DNA of 64,000 nucleotides, taken from positions 1 to 64,000 of the forward strand of contig JAFXCE010000088.1 of assembly GCA_017521565.1 (NCBI GenBank). The letters are read 5' to 3'. The position numbers were made by a program, and so were the translations under genes. The DNA is from Clostridia bacterium (GTDB lineage: Bacteria; Bacillota; Clostridia; Christensenellales; Aristaeellaceae). Position 1 is the first letter of the stretch. Each line of letters starts with the position of its first letter. Positions 20,211-28,022 of this stretch are shown piece by piece. A model generated the notes under the pieces. The model did not search any database. It had not been told where the DNA came from and saw nothing but the letters and a program-made list of their open reading frames with translations.

Positions 20211-22091
20211 TTATTCGTTTTCCTCAGGTCGAAGAATCTCGGTTTCGTAGTATGCGCCGTCGCGCCAGAAGATAAGCTTTGCGCTTTCGCCCGGGGCGAT
20301 TGAGGCGCGCGCCTTGCGCAGCGTCGCGTCGCCGAGGACTGTGATGTCGCCGATGCCGGCGATGATGTCGCCGCGCCGCAGGCCCGCGTCCTCCGCAGGC
20401 GAGTTCGGTTCGACTTCGCTGATCCAAGCGCCCTGCGGCAGATTATAGTGGCTCTGATAGACGGGCAGCACATAGCGTGTCACAAAGCCCATCTCCCATT
20501 TTGCGGCTTCTGCGCGCTCCGCATCGGTGATTTCAATGGGAAGCGTGCGGATCAGGTCTTCTCCTGCGCCGTTGTCCACGTTGATGAAGACATACTGGTC
20601 GTCGTCCACATAGACGTTGCGTCCGCCGGAGCGGTACCAGCTGACGGCAATCTGCGCGCCGGAGAAATAGACGTCCCGGCTGACCTGGAAGTGATGCGGA
20701 TAGAACACGTCGGTATAGGTTTCCGGCGGGCCAAAGATCTCGATCCATTCATCGCTGATGAATTCGCTGCCGGGAATGTCCTCCCAGCTGTCGTAATCCC
20801 CCTCCTCGGGGACATAGAAATCCGAATAAGAGCGACCGTCTGCAATGGAAATCTCATCTACGGAATACTGACGCTCGATTTCTTCCTCGAAGGTTTCGGC
20901 CATGTATGCGGGCGTGCCGTCGGCGTAATAGGGGATGATCTTGAGGCCGAAGGCGGTCAGTTTGCTGCCGGTATTGTTGCGCACGGATACCTGCACGCTG
21001 CCGCAGAAGCTGAAAGACGAAGTCTCTGCGCGCTGAATCCACATGTCGGATTCCTTGCTGTTTTCGAGGTATTTGACCTCCTGCTCGCTGCCCTCGCGCG
21101 CCAGCGTGCGGTCGTCAAAGAGCATGGCCTGCGTATGCGGGTCGGCTTCGCCGGTGACGGGCAGGCCGTTGTCCTGCTGGAATTTGCGGATGACGTCGGA
21201 GGTGGATTCGGTGTAGTTGGAATTGTCGTTGCGCTTGCGGAAATAGCCCAGATCATAGAGCCTGCGCTTGACCTTGAGCACATCCTCGCTTCGGTCGCCG
21301 GGGCGCAGGGTATGATACTGCGCGAGTTCTTCATCCGTATAAGAGAAGGGCTCCAGCGCCTGAATATCGGCAATCGGATCGCAGGCAAGCACCGGATACC
21401 GATCAAGCACGGCCTGCGCGGAAACCGGCGTCAGCTCCGCCGGGCGGATGAGGCGGATCAGCTCGGCGAGCATATAGCCCTCCGCGCCGTCATCCATCTC
21501 AACGACATACCACAATTTGCCGTCGACGGTGATTTCTCCCTTGATGGTTGCGCGCTCGTTGCCGGAATAGGTATCAAGGCGTGCGCCGCCCGCAGATTTG
21601 CGCAGGTTGGACGGCTTGAGTGTGCGGCCGATGTTCGGCTCTTCGTAGTAAAGCGGCGTCGGTTCCGGCGTGGGCGAGGGAGTAGGCGCCTTGGTGGGCT
21701 TGGGGGTTGGCGTGGGGGTAGGCACTGGAGTAGGTGTGGGCACCGGCGTGGGCGAAGGTGTCGGCGTGGGTGAAGGGACGGGCTCCAGCAGGTCGGTCAT
21801 GATATAGCCCTTCCGTCCGGTCTTGAACACGCGGACATAGGCCCAGCCGCCCTCGACGGTGTCGAGCACCTCCACGAGTGTATCGCCCTTCAGCTGATCG
21901 ATCATGCCGCTTTTCTTGTCGGGGAGCTTGCGCAGATTTGCCGGTTTTCCGGTTTGCAGGCAGCCGGCTTTATAGCTGTCTTCCAGCATCGCATTCACGC
22001 TGGTATCGCAAAGCGCATGTGGCGCGGCAGCGAAGAGAAGCGCGGAAACGGCGAGCGCAGCGGCGCAGCATCTCGTCAGTTGTTTCAACAT
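20211..22091 (-). CDS. Secreted SH3b - PG-binding - PDZ protein
   Basis: A 626-residue exported protein with a signal peptide (about 1-28, [19 protein letters not shown]). Domains in order are an SH3b-like domain (about 45-104, [20 protein letters not shown]), a Pro-Thr linker (about 105-147, (S/T)PTP repeats), a second SH3b (about 155-215, [17 protein letters not shown]), a PG_binding_1 domain (about 262-330, [20 protein letters not shown]), an unrecognised beta-rich region (about 350-540), and a C-terminal PDZ domain (about 548-620, [20 protein letters not shown]). No protease domain is visible. It probably sits in the cell wall and presents peptides or client proteins; a scaffold role is inference. 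It is monocistronic. Confidence 0.8.
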
Positions 22092-22462: not shown

Positions 22463-22580
22463 GCAATAAGAGGAGGAGGCTGTGAAGCGATTTGTCATAT
22501 ACATGACAAGCAAAACGGCGCCTCCGACGGTGCGTTTACTGAAAACAGAAGGACGCAAGAAGAAAGGAAGGAAAATGATC

Positions 22581-24497
22581 ATGAAGAAATGGCTTTGCCT
22601 GCTTCTGACCCTGGTGCTGACCCTGGCGATCGCCGCCGGCGCCTGCGCGAAGGAAGATTGGGTGACCCCGGTTCAGGAGATTGAGAACTGGGATCGCGAA
22701 GTGGATTTCCTCGTCGTCGGCTACGGCCTTGCCGGCGCTGCGGCTGCCGTTGAGGCGTACGACATCGACCCGACCGCGGAGATCCTCGTTCTGGAGAAGA
22801 TGCCGCGCGCGCTTGCCGGCGGTAACTCCATCGCTTCCGGCCAGACGTTCCTCGTTCCGGCGCAGAGCGCTGTCGAGACCGTCAAGACCTACCTGTACAA
22901 CTGCAACCTGCCGAACCCGATTCCGGACGAGTATCTGACCTGGCTGTGCCAGGGCTTTGCGGATCAGCTGCCGTGGATCGAGTCCATCGCTGCGGGCGTC
23001 GGCTATGAGGCCGGCTACGTTGGCGGCGGCGAGCTGAAGTGGGGCTCCATGGTCGTCGAGTTTGACTCCTTCGAGGGCTCTACCTTTGACGGCTGCTCTG
23101 CTCACCTGCGCAAGATCGGCTCCACCTTCGAGAACGGCGGCGTGTGGCGCTGCTTCGATCTGGCCTGCACCGCTCGCGGCATCGAAGTTGCGTACGAGAC
23201 TCCGGCTGTCTCCCTGATTCAGGATCCGTTCACCAAGGAAGTCTTCGGCGTCATCGCCCGTCAGGCGGACGGCACCGAGATTGCCATCAAGTCCAAGAAG
23301 GGCACCCTGCTGGCCTGCGGCGGCTACGAGAACGACCTGCAGATGCAGCGTGACTTCCACGGTATGGACATCGTCTACACCGCGGGCACCCCGGGCAACA
23401 CCGGCGACGGCATCAAGATGCTGATGGAAGCCGGCGCTCAGATCTGGCACATGAAGAACCAGACCCAGTCTGGCGGCTTCTGGCTGGGCATCAAGGTTCC
23501 GGAGCATGAGGCGACCTTCATGCGCAACTTCACCATGGCCGGCAACTCCTGGATTGAGATCAGCGCTGACGGCACCCGCTTCTACGACGAGGCGACCGGC
23601 TATCATCGCCAGCATATGAAGTACCTCGAGTACGGCCGCTATGTTGACCTGCCGCACGAGAAGGCGCTCCCGGTTGACGTAATCTTCGACGAGAAGACCC
23701 GTGAGGCGGGCTCCATCGCTTCCCAGTGGCTGAGCTGGCCGACCACCACCGAGGGCTACATGTGGACCAGCGACAACCTCGCTGAGATCGAAAAGGGCTG
23801 GATCATCAAGGCTGACACCATCGAAGAGCTTGCTGAGAAGATCGGCCGCGATCCGGAGCAGCTGAAGGCGACCATCGAAAAGTGGAACGCTGACTGCGCT
23901 GCGGGCGTTGACTCTGAGTTCGGCCGCAACCCGGAGAAGATGGCTCCGATCGATACCGCTCCGTACTACGCTGTTTCCATCACCCCGACTCTGGTCGGCA
24001 CCACCGGCGGCGCCAAGCGCGACACCGCTGGCCGCGTCCTCGACTGGAACGACGAGCCGATCCCGGGCCTGTATGAGGCTGGCGAGCTGGGCTCCTACTT
24101 CTCCAATCTCTATCAGAACGGTACTTTCCTCTCCGAGGCGATGCTCTCCGGCCGCGCTGCTGCGCAGACCGCTTTCGGCGGCGTTTCCGAGATCAAGGTC
24201 TTTGAGAAGGCTGAAAACAATGGTCCGGCCTGGGCTGGCGCTGCTGACGGCGATTACTCCGCCATGTGCCAGGGCCTCCACGATCCGTTCGAGGTCATCT
24301 TCACTGTCAAGGACGGCAAGCTCGTTGAAGCGAAGCTGGGCGAGGGCCGTGAGAACATGTTCATGACCGAGGAGCAGTTCGCTGCGTACACCGGCGCGAT
24401 CATCGCTGCTCAGGATCAGAATGTGGATATCGTCGCGGGCGCGACCGTTGACTGCCAGGCCATTGGTACCGGCATCAACGAGGCGTTTGCGAAGTAA
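22581..24497 (+). CDS. Secreted FAD-dependent reductase-like flavoprotein with C-terminal flavinylation motif
   Basis: A 638-residue protein. It has a signal peptide (about 1-23, ending ACA), an FAD_binding_2 domain of the fumarate reductase/urocanate reductase superfamily (GYGLAG dinucleotide motif at residues 47-52, then ILVLEKMP; C-terminal FAD motif GLYEAGELGSYFSNLYQNG), and a short FMN-bind-like tail with DIVAGAT at residues 616-622. In this family ApbE attaches FMN to the Thr (T622). I choose the ATG at 22581 because AAGGAAGG lies about 9 bases upstream and a clean signal peptide follows. The substrate is unknown; the active-site region is not that of classical fumarate reductase. Codon use suggests high expression. 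Confidence 0.85.
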   Translation: MKKWLCLLLTLVLTLAIAAGACAKEDWVTPVQEIENWDREVDFLVVGYGLAGAAAAVEAYDIDPTAEILVLEKMPRALAGGNSIASGQTFLVPAQSAVETVKTYLYNCNLPNPIPDEYLTWLCQGFADQLPWIESIAAGVGYEAGYVGGGELKWGSMVVEFDSFEGSTFDGCSAHLRKIGSTFENGGVWRCFDLACTARGIEVAYETPAVSLIQDPFTKEVFGVIARQADGTEIAIKSKKGTLLACGGYENDLQMQRDFHGMDIVYTAGTPGNTGDGIKMLMEAGAQIWHMKNQTQSGGFWLGIKVPEHEATFMRNFTMAGNSWIEISADGTRFYDEATGYHRQHMKYLEYGRYVDLPHEKALPVDVIFDEKTREAGSIASQWLSWPTTTEGYMWTSDNLAEIEKGWIIKADTIEELAEKIGRDPEQLKATIEKWNADCAAGVDSEFGRNPEKMAPIDTAPYYAVSITPTLVGTTGGAKRDTAGRVLDWNDEPIPGLYEAGELGSYFSNLYQNGTFLSEAMLSGRAAAQTAFGGVSEIKVFEKAENNGPAWAGAADGDYSAMCQGLHDPFEVIFTVKDGKLVEAKLGEGRENMFMTEEQFAAYTGAIIAAQDQNVDIVAGATVDCQAIGTGINEAFAK

Positions 24498-24544
24498 TCT
24501 CCATACCCCGTAGATCCCCAAGCGCATCTGATATTTGGATGTGA

Positions 24545-24576
24545 CCGGGCGCACGGTCATGTGCGCCCGGTTTTTT
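24545..24576 (+). terminator. Terminator after flavoprotein 1
   Basis: CCGGGCGCAC-GGTCAT-GTGCGCCCGG, a 10-bp perfect stem, then TTTTTT. Confidence 0.9.
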
Positions 24577-24646
24577 CTCCTTATTAGATGTCGGGGGCAC
24601 AGGAAGAATGTTCCTGATAAAAATACAGTACATCAAGGGGAAACGC

Positions 24647-24691
24647 TTGCTATCGATTCCTCTTGCATGATACAATAAGTTATCCCATAAC
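24647..24691 (+). promoter_or_regulatory. Promoter with inverted repeat for flavoproteins 2 and 3
   Basis: TTGCTA (24647-24652), an 18-base spacer and TACAAT (24671-24676). Directly after the -10 is GTTAT-CCC-ATAAC (24679-24691), an inverted repeat well placed for a repressor. The left arm, ATAAGTTA, is the same half-site as in the palindrome upstream of the LysR gene at 30808-30822. Confidence 0.7.
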
Positions 24692-24723
24692 GGGGTACAA
24701 ATAAGAAGAAGGAGAGATTACCT

Positions 24724-26637
24724 ATGAACAAGCTGATTTCTCTGCTGCTGGCCATGGCCATGCTGCTGTCCAGCTTCGTGGTTCCGGCGTTTGCCGAGAG
24801 CGCCGCGGATGCGGACGTGATCGTCATCGGCGCCGGCGGCGGCGGCCTGTCTGCTGCGCTGGAGGCTGCGGCCCAGGGCGCTCAGAAGGTTATCGTGCTG
24901 GAAATGACCGCTAAGACCGGCGGCGCGCTGAACTACACCAGCGGCTCTATGTCTGCTGCGGGCACCATCATCCAGAAGGAAGAGGGCGTTGAGGACAGCG
25001 TCGACGCTTATGTTGCGGACATCCTGCGTATCGGCGGCGACCTCGGCGGCCAGCCGAACGAGGCGCTCGTGCGCGTGTACGCCAACGAGGCGACCGCTGT
25101 GTTTGACTGGCTGTATGAGGCTGGTCTGAAGGACAACGCTTACTCTGTTGACCGTGCGACCGGCAACCGCGCCGTGTTCGCGCCGGAGCATGCGCTGTTC
25201 ACCATCCAGCGTACCTACAAGCCGAGCCCGGACGACAAGGCGAACTACAAGTCCGCTGCGCATGAGGTGCTCGACAGCCTGATCGCTCAGGACGAGCGCA
25301 TCGAAGTGAAGCTGAACACCAAGGCCGTTGAGCTCGTCGCCAACGACAAGGGTCAGGTTCTGTCCGTTGTGACTGCGGACGGCGAGAAGCTCACCGCTTC
25401 CAAGGGTATCATTGTCACCACCGGCGGCTACTCCGCCAACGGCAAGCTGATGGCGCAGTTCGTGCCGTACGGCAACTACTATCTGGCCGGCGGCGCTGCG
25501 GGCGCGGACGGCAACGGCATCCAGATGATGCAGAAGGTTGGCGCCGGCGTGACCGCTATGGACGCCATTCCGACCTTCCCGATGGGTCTGATCAGCAAGG
25601 ATAACCCGAAGACCGGCGCGATCGCCAACACCTATACCTGGAAGGCTGGCGGCATCGTCATCAACCAGAACGGCGAGCGCTTCTGCAACGAGACCGAGAC
25701 CAACCCGGCCGTGCGCGAGGTTGCCCTTGAGGGTCAGCCGGAAGCCATCCAGTACGACATCTTCACCGATAAGATCATTGAGGATCTGCGTGCTGCTGGT
25801 CAGGCATACTTCTACGATGCTTACTTTGCTGCCGAGGGTCAGCCGGGCTGGCATGTCGTGAACACTGCGGCGACCCTGGAAGAGCTGGCTGCGAAGATCA
25901 ACGTTCCGGCGGAGAACCTCCTCAAGACCGTTGAGACCTACAACGCGGCTGTTGAAGCCGGCGCGTCCGACGAGTTTGGCCGCCTCTATGATGGCACCAT
26001 GAATGCTTACAACGTAGCCGTCAACAAGATCGAGGGCGAAAAGTTCTACGCCATCCCGCTCAAGGCGCTGTGCGTCATGACCCTGGGCGGCGTCACCGCC
26101 AATGAGAACATGCAGGTCCTCGACGAGGCCGGCAATGTGATCCCGGGCCTGTATGCGGCTGGCGAAACCGTCGGCGGCGTGTGGGGCAAGTTCGTTTCCT
26201 CCGGCACCGGCGTTATGGGCCCGATCGTCTTTGGTAAGGTCGCTGCCCGCAATGCCATGACCCTGGAGCTTGCTGAGGGCTATGAGGTCAAGGCTGCGCA
26301 GAACCTGCTCGCGGACGAGCTGTTCGTGAAGGAAGCGGCTGCCGGCGCTGAGTTCGACATGACCGCTGCCCTCGCCGATGGCGAGTACACCGCGACTGTC
26401 GACGGCCAGGAGGGCCCGATGACTGTCAAGACCGTGATCGCCGATGGCAAGATCGCGTCTGTTGAGGTCGTGGAGAACCACGAGACCCCGTCTATCGCTG
26501 GCGCTGCGATCGAGTCCGTTCCGGCCAAGATCGTGGAGACCAATAGCGTGAGCGTCGACGCCGTCGCCGGCGCGACCCTGACCTCTACCCGCATCATGAA
26601 GGCTGTGGCCGAGTGCCTCACCGCTGCTGCGAAGTAA
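24724..26637 (+). CDS. Secreted FAD/FMN flavoprotein reductase-like protein
   Basis: A 637-residue protein. It has a signal peptide (1-24, ending AFA), an FAD_binding_2 domain (about 31-515, GAGGGG at 36-41, VIVLEMTAKTGGALNYTSGS) and a C-terminal FMN-bind domain (about 553-637) ending in SVDAVAGATLTSTRIMKAV, with DAVAGAT at 612-618 and T618 the predicted FMN attachment site. The C-terminal FAD motif reads GLYAAGETVGGVWGKFVSSG, where fumarate reductases carry GGxHGxNRLGG. The catalytic His/Arg of fumarate binding therefore appear replaced, and a different acceptor is likely. It is probably co-transcribed with flavoprotein 3. Confidence 0.87.
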   Translation: MNKLISLLLAMAMLLSSFVVPAFAESAADADVIVIGAGGGGLSAALEAAAQGAQKVIVLEMTAKTGGALNYTSGSMSAAGTIIQKEEGVEDSVDAYVADILRIGGDLGGQPNEALVRVYANEATAVFDWLYEAGLKDNAYSVDRATGNRAVFAPEHALFTIQRTYKPSPDDKANYKSAAHEVLDSLIAQDERIEVKLNTKAVELVANDKGQVLSVVTADGEKLTASKGIIVTTGGYSANGKLMAQFVPYGNYYLAGGAAGADGNGIQMMQKVGAGVTAMDAIPTFPMGLISKDNPKTGAIANTYTWKAGGIVINQNGERFCNETETNPAVREVALEGQPEAIQYDIFTDKIIEDLRAAGQAYFYDAYFAAEGQPGWHVVNTAATLEELAAKINVPAENLLKTVETYNAAVEAGASDEFGRLYDGTMNAYNVAVNKIEGEKFYAIPLKALCVMTLGGVTANENMQVLDEAGNVIPGLYAAGETVGGVWGKFVSSGTGVMGPIVFGKVAARNAMTLELAEGYEVKAAQNLLADELFVKEAAAGAEFDMTAALADGEYTATVDGQEGPMTVKTVIADGKIASVEVVENHETPSIAGAAIESVPAKIVETNSVSVDAVAGATLTSTRIMKAVAECLTAAAK

Positions 26638-26651
26638 TTCAACCAATCTGC

Positions 26652-26680
26652 TCCCGGTTCCTTAAGCAGGGACTGGGAGT
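26652..26680 (+). promoter_or_regulatory. Intercistronic hairpin between flavoproteins 2 and 3
   Basis: CTCCCGGTTCC-TTAAGCA-GGGACTGGGAG, 11 pairs with two G-U pairs and no T tract. It is likely an mRNA stabiliser or expression-balancing element rather than a terminator. Confidence 0.5.
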
Positions 26681-26708
26681 TTGACAACATGAAAAGAGGA
26701 AATGGACC

Positions 26709-27836
26709 ATGAAGAAGATTTTTGCCTTGATGCTTGCACTTGCGCTGGTGTTCAGCATGACTGCGTTCGCTGAGGAAACCTTCTCTGCGGAGTATGAGAT
26801 GAAGGGCACCACCTCTGCGGGAAAGCCCAAGAATGATACGTTTATCTTTGAGGGTAAGACTGTGGACGGTGTGATCACTGAGCTGAACTTTGACATCATC
26901 CGCAACAAGGGCGCGGAGGGTGAGTACTCCAAAAAGGGCATCATGGGCTACATGATGAACGTGTCCGATGCGGCTGTGGAGAAGACCGAGACGGGTTACA
27001 AGCTTTCCCAGATGACTGCGTACGGTTATGATCCGAAGTTTGATTCCGGCATGTATGCGCAGTTCATGGTCAGCGCTTCTGCGGAGAACCTGACCGAGGA
27101 GCTGACCTTTGGCGAGCTGACCTTCGCGAACATGGCTAAGCCGGGTGAGGCTCTGGCGATGGATAAGGCCATCCTGGCGTTCCAGTATCTGGCCAACGAA
27201 GCCGGCATTACCCTGACCGAGGCGACCCCGGTCAAGGATATCCTGGCGATCCATGGCTTCTACAAGGACGGCGCGTTTGTCGAGGGTACGACCCGCGTGT
27301 CCTTCGCCGGTTATAACGGCGGCCGCAGCTACGGCGAGCAGATCGACGCGATCGTGGCGCATATTCTTGCCAATGGCATGACGCTGGAGCAGGTCTACGA
27401 GATGTTCAAGACCGTCAACCAGGAGAGCGAGCCGATTGAAGAGCGTGACACCGTCTCCGGCGCGACCATCGCGTTTGTCGGCGATTTCCAGCGCATGGTT
27501 TACATGGCGATGTATGGCGAGCTGTATGAGGGTGTTGTCGCGCATACGACTACGGATGGCATTACCAAGGTTCAGGTTGCGACGCAGGGCTTTGCCGGTG
27601 AAATCGAGACCCATGTTTCCTTCGATGCTGAGGGCAAGATCGTTGCCGTCTCTGTGCGCGATGCGCAGGAAACTGAGGGGATCGGCGCGGCTGTGTATGC
27701 CGAGGATTCCGCGTTCTTCAAGGCGATTGTCGAAGGCAATACGGCTGAGGTGGATGCTGTGGCCGGCGCGACCGTGACCTCTGAGGCACTGAAGAAGGCT
27801 GTTCAGATGGCGAAGGATTACGTTGCCGCTCTGTAA
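26709..27836 (+). CDS. Secreted protein with two FMN-bind (flavinylation) motifs
   Basis: A 375-residue protein with a signal peptide (1-21, ending AFA). The C-terminal part is a canonical FMN-bind domain of the RnfG/NqrC type: GFAGEIETHVSFDAEGKI, then DAQETEGIGAAV and DAVAGATVTSEALKKAV, with D349-T355 the attachment motif. A second motif, DTVSGATIAF (D247-T253), ends an N-terminal region that also looks like a degenerate FMN-bind domain. Two covalent flavins in one small exported protein resemble the extracytoplasmic electron carrier PplA. It may relay electrons from the membrane to flavoproteins 1 and 2. No ApbE or membrane donor lies in the window. Confidence 0.85.
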   Translation: MKKIFALMLALALVFSMTAFAEETFSAEYEMKGTTSAGKPKNDTFIFEGKTVDGVITELNFDIIRNKGAEGEYSKKGIMGYMMNVSDAAVEKTETGYKLSQMTAYGYDPKFDSGMYAQFMVSASAENLTEELTFGELTFANMAKPGEALAMDKAILAFQYLANEAGITLTEATPVKDILAIHGFYKDGAFVEGTTRVSFAGYNGGRSYGEQIDAIVAHILANGMTLEQVYEMFKTVNQESEPIEERDTVSGATIAFVGDFQRMVYMAMYGELYEGVVAHTTTDGITKVQVATQGFAGEIETHVSFDAEGKIVAVSVRDAQETEGIGAAVYAEDSAFFKAIVEGNTAEVDAVAGATVTSEALKKAVQMAKDYVAAL

Positions 27837-27852
27837 TGATCGGAAATATACA

Positions 27853-27884
27853 GGACGCCCCGGAGCAATCCGGGGCGTTTTGTT
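27853..27884 (+). terminator. Terminator after flavoprotein 3
   Basis: ACGCCCCGGA-GCAA-TCCGGGGCGT stem followed by TTTGTTG. Confidence 0.8.
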
Positions 27885-27892
27885 GATTATGT

Positions 27893-28022
27893 AACCCTTC
27901 CACCGCTTACGCGGTCCCCCTCCCCTTTCAGGGGAGGCAGAGGTTATTTACAAAACCATGGCTCCCCTGAAAGGGGAGCTGGCGCCGCAGCGCCTGAAGG
28001 GTGAAGTGTGCGAAGCACACTT
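27893..28022. repeat. Extragenic palindromic repeat element
   Basis: About 110 non-coding bases bounded by ACCCTTC (27893) and GAAGGGT (27996-28002). The element contains two strong internal palindromes, CTCCCCTTTCAGGGGAG and CTCCCCTGAAAGGGGAG, plus CCGC-TTAC-GCGG and a GGCGCCGCAGCGCC stretch. A GTGTGC-GAA-GCACAC hairpin with TTTT follows. Terminal inverted repeats and internal hairpins resemble the multi-copy extragenic repeats seen in gut Clostridia; whether it is mobile (MITE-like) cannot be told from one copy. Confidence 0.6.

Follow-up and report, generated by a model that had tools for sequence, protein, structure and literature searches.

In the first 64,000 nucleotides of contig JAFXCE010000088.1 (forward strand) from a Clostridia bacterium of the family Aristaeellaceae (assembly GCA_017521565.1), the whole of which is called the window below, three consecutive plus-strand genes, G1, G2 and G3, encode apparently exported proteins that together carry four flavinylation motifs of the ApbE type. 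We consider it probable that they make up two neighboring units of exported flavinylated redox enzymes, G1 acting alone and G2 acting together with G3, a relay that would supply G2.

G1 (22581..24497; 638 amino acids; an ATG at 22575 is also a possible start) and G2 (24724..26637; 637 amino acids) are predicted exported reductases with an FAD_binding_2 domain (119.9 and 198.6 bits, respectively, vs. a gathering score of 20.4) and a C-terminal FMN_bind domain (22.0 bits, exactly the cut-off, and 54.9 bits). The weak FMN domain of G1 is backed by a profile match to the solved FMN domain 8p2b (E = 6.8e-7). G3 (26709..27836; 375 amino acids) is a predicted exported two-flavin protein with an FMN_bind domain at its C-terminus (59.4 bits). 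The motifs read DIVAGAT in G1 (ending at T622), DAVAGAT in G2 (T618), and DTVSGAT (T253) and DAVAGAT (T355) in G3. Among the 51 window genes predicted by our own script the pattern D-x-V-[AS]-G-A-T is present in these three only, with a chance expectation from composition of 0.002-0.004 per protein. All three proteins start with a Sec-type signal sequence as judged by eye; with export resting on that judgement, the open reading frames and motifs bear out the sequence-only reading, which had described three consecutive secreted proteins with four such motifs. GAT is retained in 12/12 G1 relatives among the matches listed; of 21 G2 relatives 15 have GAT, two GAS and one GVT, and three fall outside the searched pattern. 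In G3 both GATs, at T253 and T355, are invariant in 15/15 aligned rows, the window included.

The best evidence, at the level of sequence, that G3 works with G2 comes from a genome of the same genus (G619), in which the two genes are fused into one frame of 1019 residues in the same chromosomal slot. Residues 38-658 of the fusion correspond to G2 (82% identity) and residues 646-1019 to G3 (77%); a short linker takes the place of the G3 signal peptide, and all three GAT motifs are retained. Because of this fusion we tie G3 to G2. In another locus (L026) G3 lies 27 nucleotides after a reductase of a different clade, which groups with the paralog C1a of the window genome (support 1.0), so the reductase next to G3 is not always the same one. 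Seventeen distinct G3 loci were collected (window, L025-L032, L044, L045, L047-L051 and L127; the weak rows L033 and L034 were excluded from all G3 counts). In two of them (L031, L045) the upstream region is cut off, and in 4 of the 15 assessable ones (window, L025, L026, L127) a reductase is directly upstream of G3 or fused to it. The idea that the third protein is an electron shuttle thus gains support from the fusion; that one shuttle feeds both reductases does not.

Between G1 and G2 an intrinsic terminator with a 13-pair stem and a T run (24543..24576, plus strand) is followed by a promoter-like site (24647..24676, plus strand; TTGCTA-18-TACAAT, TG-extended, 9/12, a consensus match only). 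The gap of 71 nucleotides between G2 and G3 (26638..26708, plus strand) has no terminator in either scan but contains a strong hairpin (-23.9 kcal/mol) with UUUGAC behind it, and after G3 our own script finds an intrinsic terminator (27855..27882, plus strand), the stem of which the second scan lists on the minus strand only. G2 and G3 look like one transcription unit, with the reservation that the scans taken together are weak evidence (5 promoter-like sites vs. 1.9 expected; 5 terminator-like sites vs. 5.4 expected). Four other G1-G2 pairs were scanned; the intergenic terminator is strong in L090 and weaker in L092 (2/4), and was not found in L025 and L091.

The genes lie in a slot that is variable across the genus. 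Its left edge is a secreted non-redox protein with SH3, PG_binding_1 and PDZ domains (20211..22091, minus strand), whose gene is matched in 28 of 29 genomes of the genus, the slot being on its 5′ side. Twelve slots are occupied, 13 are without array genes and three contain a contig end (G212, G620, G582). The order G1-G2-G3-R4-TetR, in which R4 is another fumarate reductase-like (Fr-like) enzyme, is kept in every multi-gene slot: G1-G2-G3 in the window, all five genes in G617 (treated as the contig of L025, just as L026 was treated as contig C280 of G588), G1-G2 in G466, G606 and G549, and G2-R4-TetR in G539. The remaining occupied slots contain G2 (G499, G446, G588), G3 (G600), the fused G2-G3 (G619) or G1 followed by a contig end (G514). 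Array genes were not seen in the slots of G559, G611, G527, G594, G621, G616, G483, G615, G575, G614, G613, G568 and G612; in nine of these (G621 onward) the SH3-PDZ protein is only 42-46% identical over its main stretch and the locus may be a different one. The constant order points more to an old array that has lost genes than to repeated insertions. We rejected a single three-gene operon because of this census and the terminator behind G1.

Samples of 250 family genomes, with the window genome included in every count, contained G1 (E <= 1e-90, close paralogs included) in 19 genomes, G2 (E <= 1e-110) in 23 and the G3 N-terminal domain in nine; G1 and G2 co-occur in eight genomes of the family samples. 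In the class sample the G3 N-terminal domain was found in 1 of 391 genomes and in the order sample full-length G3 (E <= 1e-20) in 1 of 396, in both cases the window's own. The genome collection yielded eight strong G3 loci, L025 and L026 in the window's family and six (L027-L032) under the titles Holdemania, Anaerorhabdus, Erysipelotrichales and Oscillospiraceae. These other-group titles suggest horizontal transfer of G3.

In the urocanate reductase UrdA the carboxylate is contacted by Arg411, His520 and Arg560, described in PMC7921117 as conserved across the fumarate reductase family and essential; for methacrylate reductase, counterparts of these contacts are reported in PMC4427408. At the corresponding columns of the fumarate reductase FccA (R402, H504, R544), where our two alignments agree, G1 has Tyr/Val/Tyr and G2 Asn/Val/Val, in line with the earlier claim that the catalytic regions of the two proteins are unlike that of fumarate reductase and unlike one another. 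(A non-reductase neighbor of 584 amino acids, own_C9b, was part of the first alignment and was removed before the second alignment and the tree.) The same genome provides the control: its paralog C69 keeps R/H/R and the whole fumarate reductase set. The window genome has 15 proteins that pair a G1-like FAD domain with an FMN domain (13 paralogs plus G1 and G2; the fragment C149 was left out), of which three (C69, C51, C56b) retain the full triad and 12, among them G1 and G2, do not. Without the Arg/His/Arg triad, G1 and G2 cannot bind their acceptors in just the way that fumarate, urocanate or methacrylate reductases do; from these residues we rejected fumarate- or urocanate-type chemistry for both, and their acceptors are probably other than fumarate-like acids. 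With the carboxylate-binding triad gone from both, the panel of acids proposed in the sequence-only reading looks like the wrong first choice of substrates.

The replacements are themselves conserved. In G1 the tyrosines at the two arginine columns are present in 19/19 rows (Y341) and 18/18 rows (Y511); in G2, F285, V451 and V491 are fixed in 22/22 rows and the residue at the catalytic arginine column (327) varies. These counts refer to 19 G1 and 22 G2 rows, left after dropping sequences that had less than 58% identity or aligned over no more than 450 residues, which include C53-type paralogs and a G2-like protein of L051, and after setting aside the loci L026, L046 and L123, which are partial or duplicates. 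In a tree of the FAD domains G1 groups with C53 and C9a (support 1.0) and G2 stands apart, while C69 goes with FccA (0.997) and C51 and C56b go with UrdA (0.867). Both proteins thus fall outside the fumarate/urocanate clade in a tree whose references are fumarate and urocanate reductases, not methacrylate, cinnamate or ketosteroid enzymes. Of the two findings that would have overturned the sequence-only reading, a genome without ApbE and a placement of both FAD domains in a known class, neither came about, the second as judged against these two reference classes. Neither protein reaches a curated NCBIfam cut-off among the best 25 of 26 and the best 25 of 59 families, including that of the vinyl phenol reductase VprA (NF053717; G1 124.4 and G2 129.5 vs. 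600). The structure model of G1 is poor (mean predicted local distance difference test score 56.2). The two tyrosines presumably resemble those of ketosteroid-type enzymes, for which reason we favor for G1 a neutral, enone- or ketone-like acceptor.

The window genome is a 3.08-Mb draft of 160 contigs and 85% completeness. Both of its ApbE matches (2/2) exceed the cut-off and have signal-like N-termini, and it contains 22 FMN_bind matches and one match of the NQR2/RnfD/RnfE family. At the end of contig C7 the look-up, which covered RnfC, RnfD and RnfG, found all three over their NCBIfam cut-offs (477.5 bits vs. 246, 276 vs. 207 and 156 vs. 102, respectively). The RnfG gene (L005 5984-7782, G000:C7) runs off the contig and has five FMN_bind matches, with a canonical GAT in domain 1 only and GVT in domains 2-5. 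The ApbE and the membrane electron donor for which a search of the genome had been suggested are both present. We propose that electrons from reduced ferredoxin or NADH would enter the Rnf complex and move outward to its multi-FMN RnfG, from there to one or both FMNs of G3, then to the FMN and finally the FAD of G2, which would reduce an acceptor outside the membrane that is unsaturated or reducible in some other way. On the same electron pool G1 would be an independent outlet via its own FMN. G1 and G2 would probably both pass their electrons to small molecules.

G3 itself is hard to place. Its N-terminal part including T253 has no Pfam match even at E <= 1, and in a profile comparison only 12 columns were aligned at the motif with a probability of 3.4; by sequence an ordinary FMN_bind domain was therefore rejected. 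A Foldseek search with the G3 model gave nothing at E <= 0.001, the best row being RnfG with E = 0.043. An assignment of G3 as RnfG was discarded, since it scores 43.5 bits with TIGR01947 vs. a cut-off of 102 bits.

Several points weigh against a G2-G3 unit that reduces acceptors other than fumarate-like acids. The fusion is a single case from a draft genome. Eleven of the 15 assessable G3 loci are without a reductase directly upstream or fused, G3 being found there alone or after an unrelated or flavodoxin gene; G2 in turn occurs mostly without G3, only 3 of the 23 G2 genomes of the family sample being among the nine with the G3 N-terminal domain. The hairpin between G2 and G3 could attenuate G3. 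The N-terminal domain of G3 goes unrecognized as FMN_bind by sequence, and the direction of electron flow is one that we infer. As to the active sites, our two alignments differ from one another in the cap, at the columns near FccA H365 and T377-R381. Next to Y341, G1 has an invariant H342 and an invariant R343, the latter two residues from the catalytic arginine column, and G2 has an invariant K307 and K489, which like R343 could still hold an acid; because of these four residues the acceptors may yet be anionic.

From the same loci one can argue that G3 works as a general flavin shuttle at the cell surface, comparable to PplA of Listeria, and would serve many reductases of the genome or an extracellular acceptor directly, its place next to G2 being incidental. 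This is a real possibility, in our judgement clearly less probable than a relay dedicated to G2. In its favor are, besides the 11 loci, a lipobox pattern in 5/5 complete G3 rows under other-group titles (Holdemania, Anaerorhabdus and others) and the position of G3 after a flavodoxin-like gene in L048, L050 and L051 (Pfam checked in L051). In total 6/15 G3 rows have the pattern, with 1/10 in the window's family; it is absent from the window G3. Against an incidental neighborhood speak the fusion with G2 and the two different arrangements in which a short gap separates a reductase from G3. In L051 (9584-12839), L050 (9601-12890) and L048 (2157-4343), G3 follows a winged-helix/MarR-like gene and the flavodoxin; in L051 an old-yellow-enzyme gene is found between these two, and in L050 apparently the same gene is split across two frames.

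We think it unlikely that the three proteins form one respiratory module with G3 as the donor to both G1 and G2, as had been suggested from the sequence. The genes are consecutive on the same strand, their order is kept in a relative of about 90% identity (L025/G617), and ApbE and Rnf are encoded in the genome. However, G1 is separated from G2 by the terminator and the promoter-like site, the G1-G2 pairs of G466, G606 and G549 are without a G3 match, and G1 or G2 is solitary in many relatives. In four genomes of other genera (G035, G589, G562, G430) a solitary G1 lies beside a divergent MerR gene (L023 8941-9750, Pfam checked; L104 2292-3101; L105 10425-11246; L106 11110-11934), possibly its dedicated regulator.

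Very unlikely is that G1 and/or G2 are dehydrogenases which oxidize an outside substrate and send the electrons inward, like ketosteroid dehydrogenases: these are the best PDB relatives of G1 (E = 8.6e-31 and 2.6e-28) and G1 has tyrosines at both arginine columns, but fumarate reductases match it nearly as well (E = 3.9e-26), its 164.2 bits are far under the 789 of the curated 3-ketosteroid dehydrogenase equivalog NF009478, and the reductase triad is kept in 3 of the 15 reductases of the same genome.

Some further features of the slot deserve mention. A palindrome, TAGACCGGTCGTCTA, is present upstream of R4 at 4/4 distinct R4 loci recognized (L006 4922-4936, L025 9247-9261, L045 9162-9176, L094 6385-6399) and is likely the operator of the linked TetR regulator. 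Just 3′ of G3 (window 27920-27978) there is an inverted-repeat element with CTCCCCTTTCAGGGGAG arms; the same genome has a 75-78% copy of it on contig C102, immediately ahead of R4-TetR (L006 4710-4776). Because G3 and R4 are neighbors in two relatives (L025, L045), the CTCCCCTTTCAGGGGAG repeat may have been the site of a rearrangement or of a switch in the assembly. Directly downstream of G2 a flavin-reductase-like gene is found in L092 (7203-7706, PF01613 checked) and L096 (477-977), and the right flank of several slots has a barnase-like ribonuclease and barstar pair (L025 13703-14524, Pfam checked; L044 8081-8946).

PplA is a lipoprotein; unlike it, the window G3 has no lipobox, and genes like those of extracellular electron transfer were not seen among the G3 neighbors. 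The likeness, by description and not by sequence comparison, is that of an exported protein with two flavinylation motifs: PplA, which functions in extracellular electron transfer of Listeria, has two such sites in one exported protein, according to PMC9973259. From RnfG, G3 differs by its score under the cut-off and by the absence of rnf neighbors. G1 and G2 share the FAD_binding_2 fold with UrdA and FccA/FrdA, and in Meheust et al. 2021 (PMC8238504) UrdA and Listeria FrdA are described as FMN-bearing and the reductases as exported; unlike UrdA and FccA, G1 and G2 are without equivalents of Arg411, His520 and Arg560.

The overall kind of system is already known, since the same article describes multi-flavinylated proteins, gene clusters in which several Fr-like domains occur, and multi-FMN RnfG proteins, some of which, in Christensenellales, also have a multi-heme domain. 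With these clusters the present system has in common ApbE, Rnf with a multi-FMN RnfG, reductases of the Fr-like type that carry FMN domains, and an extra multi-FMN protein; it differs in that G3 pairs with different reductases depending on the genome and is fused to one, that one G3 flavin domain is not seen by Pfam, and that the reductases lack the triad. New to us, and absent from the listings that our searches of open-licence papers gave, are the pair that goes from adjacent genes to a fusion, the slot with its fixed gene order and the active sites that lack the triad. One could go further and see in G2-G3 a respiratory holoenzyme of a new kind, in which the reductase brings its own multi-flavin wire, adjacent or fused, in a genus-wide reductase slot; a domain with a large insertion, so far not described as a substrate of ApbE, would then hold one flavin of the wire, and the arginine-less sites would act outside the known acid class. 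We put this forward only tentatively and regard it as rather doubtful.

Gut Clostridia have many exported flavin reductases with unassigned acceptors. The fixed-order slot reveals which of them travel together, and the G2-G3 fusion is a ready-made pair of donor and enzyme for the bench. Since only 3 of the 15 reductases of this genome keep the triad, most of them merit testing beyond fumarate-like acids.

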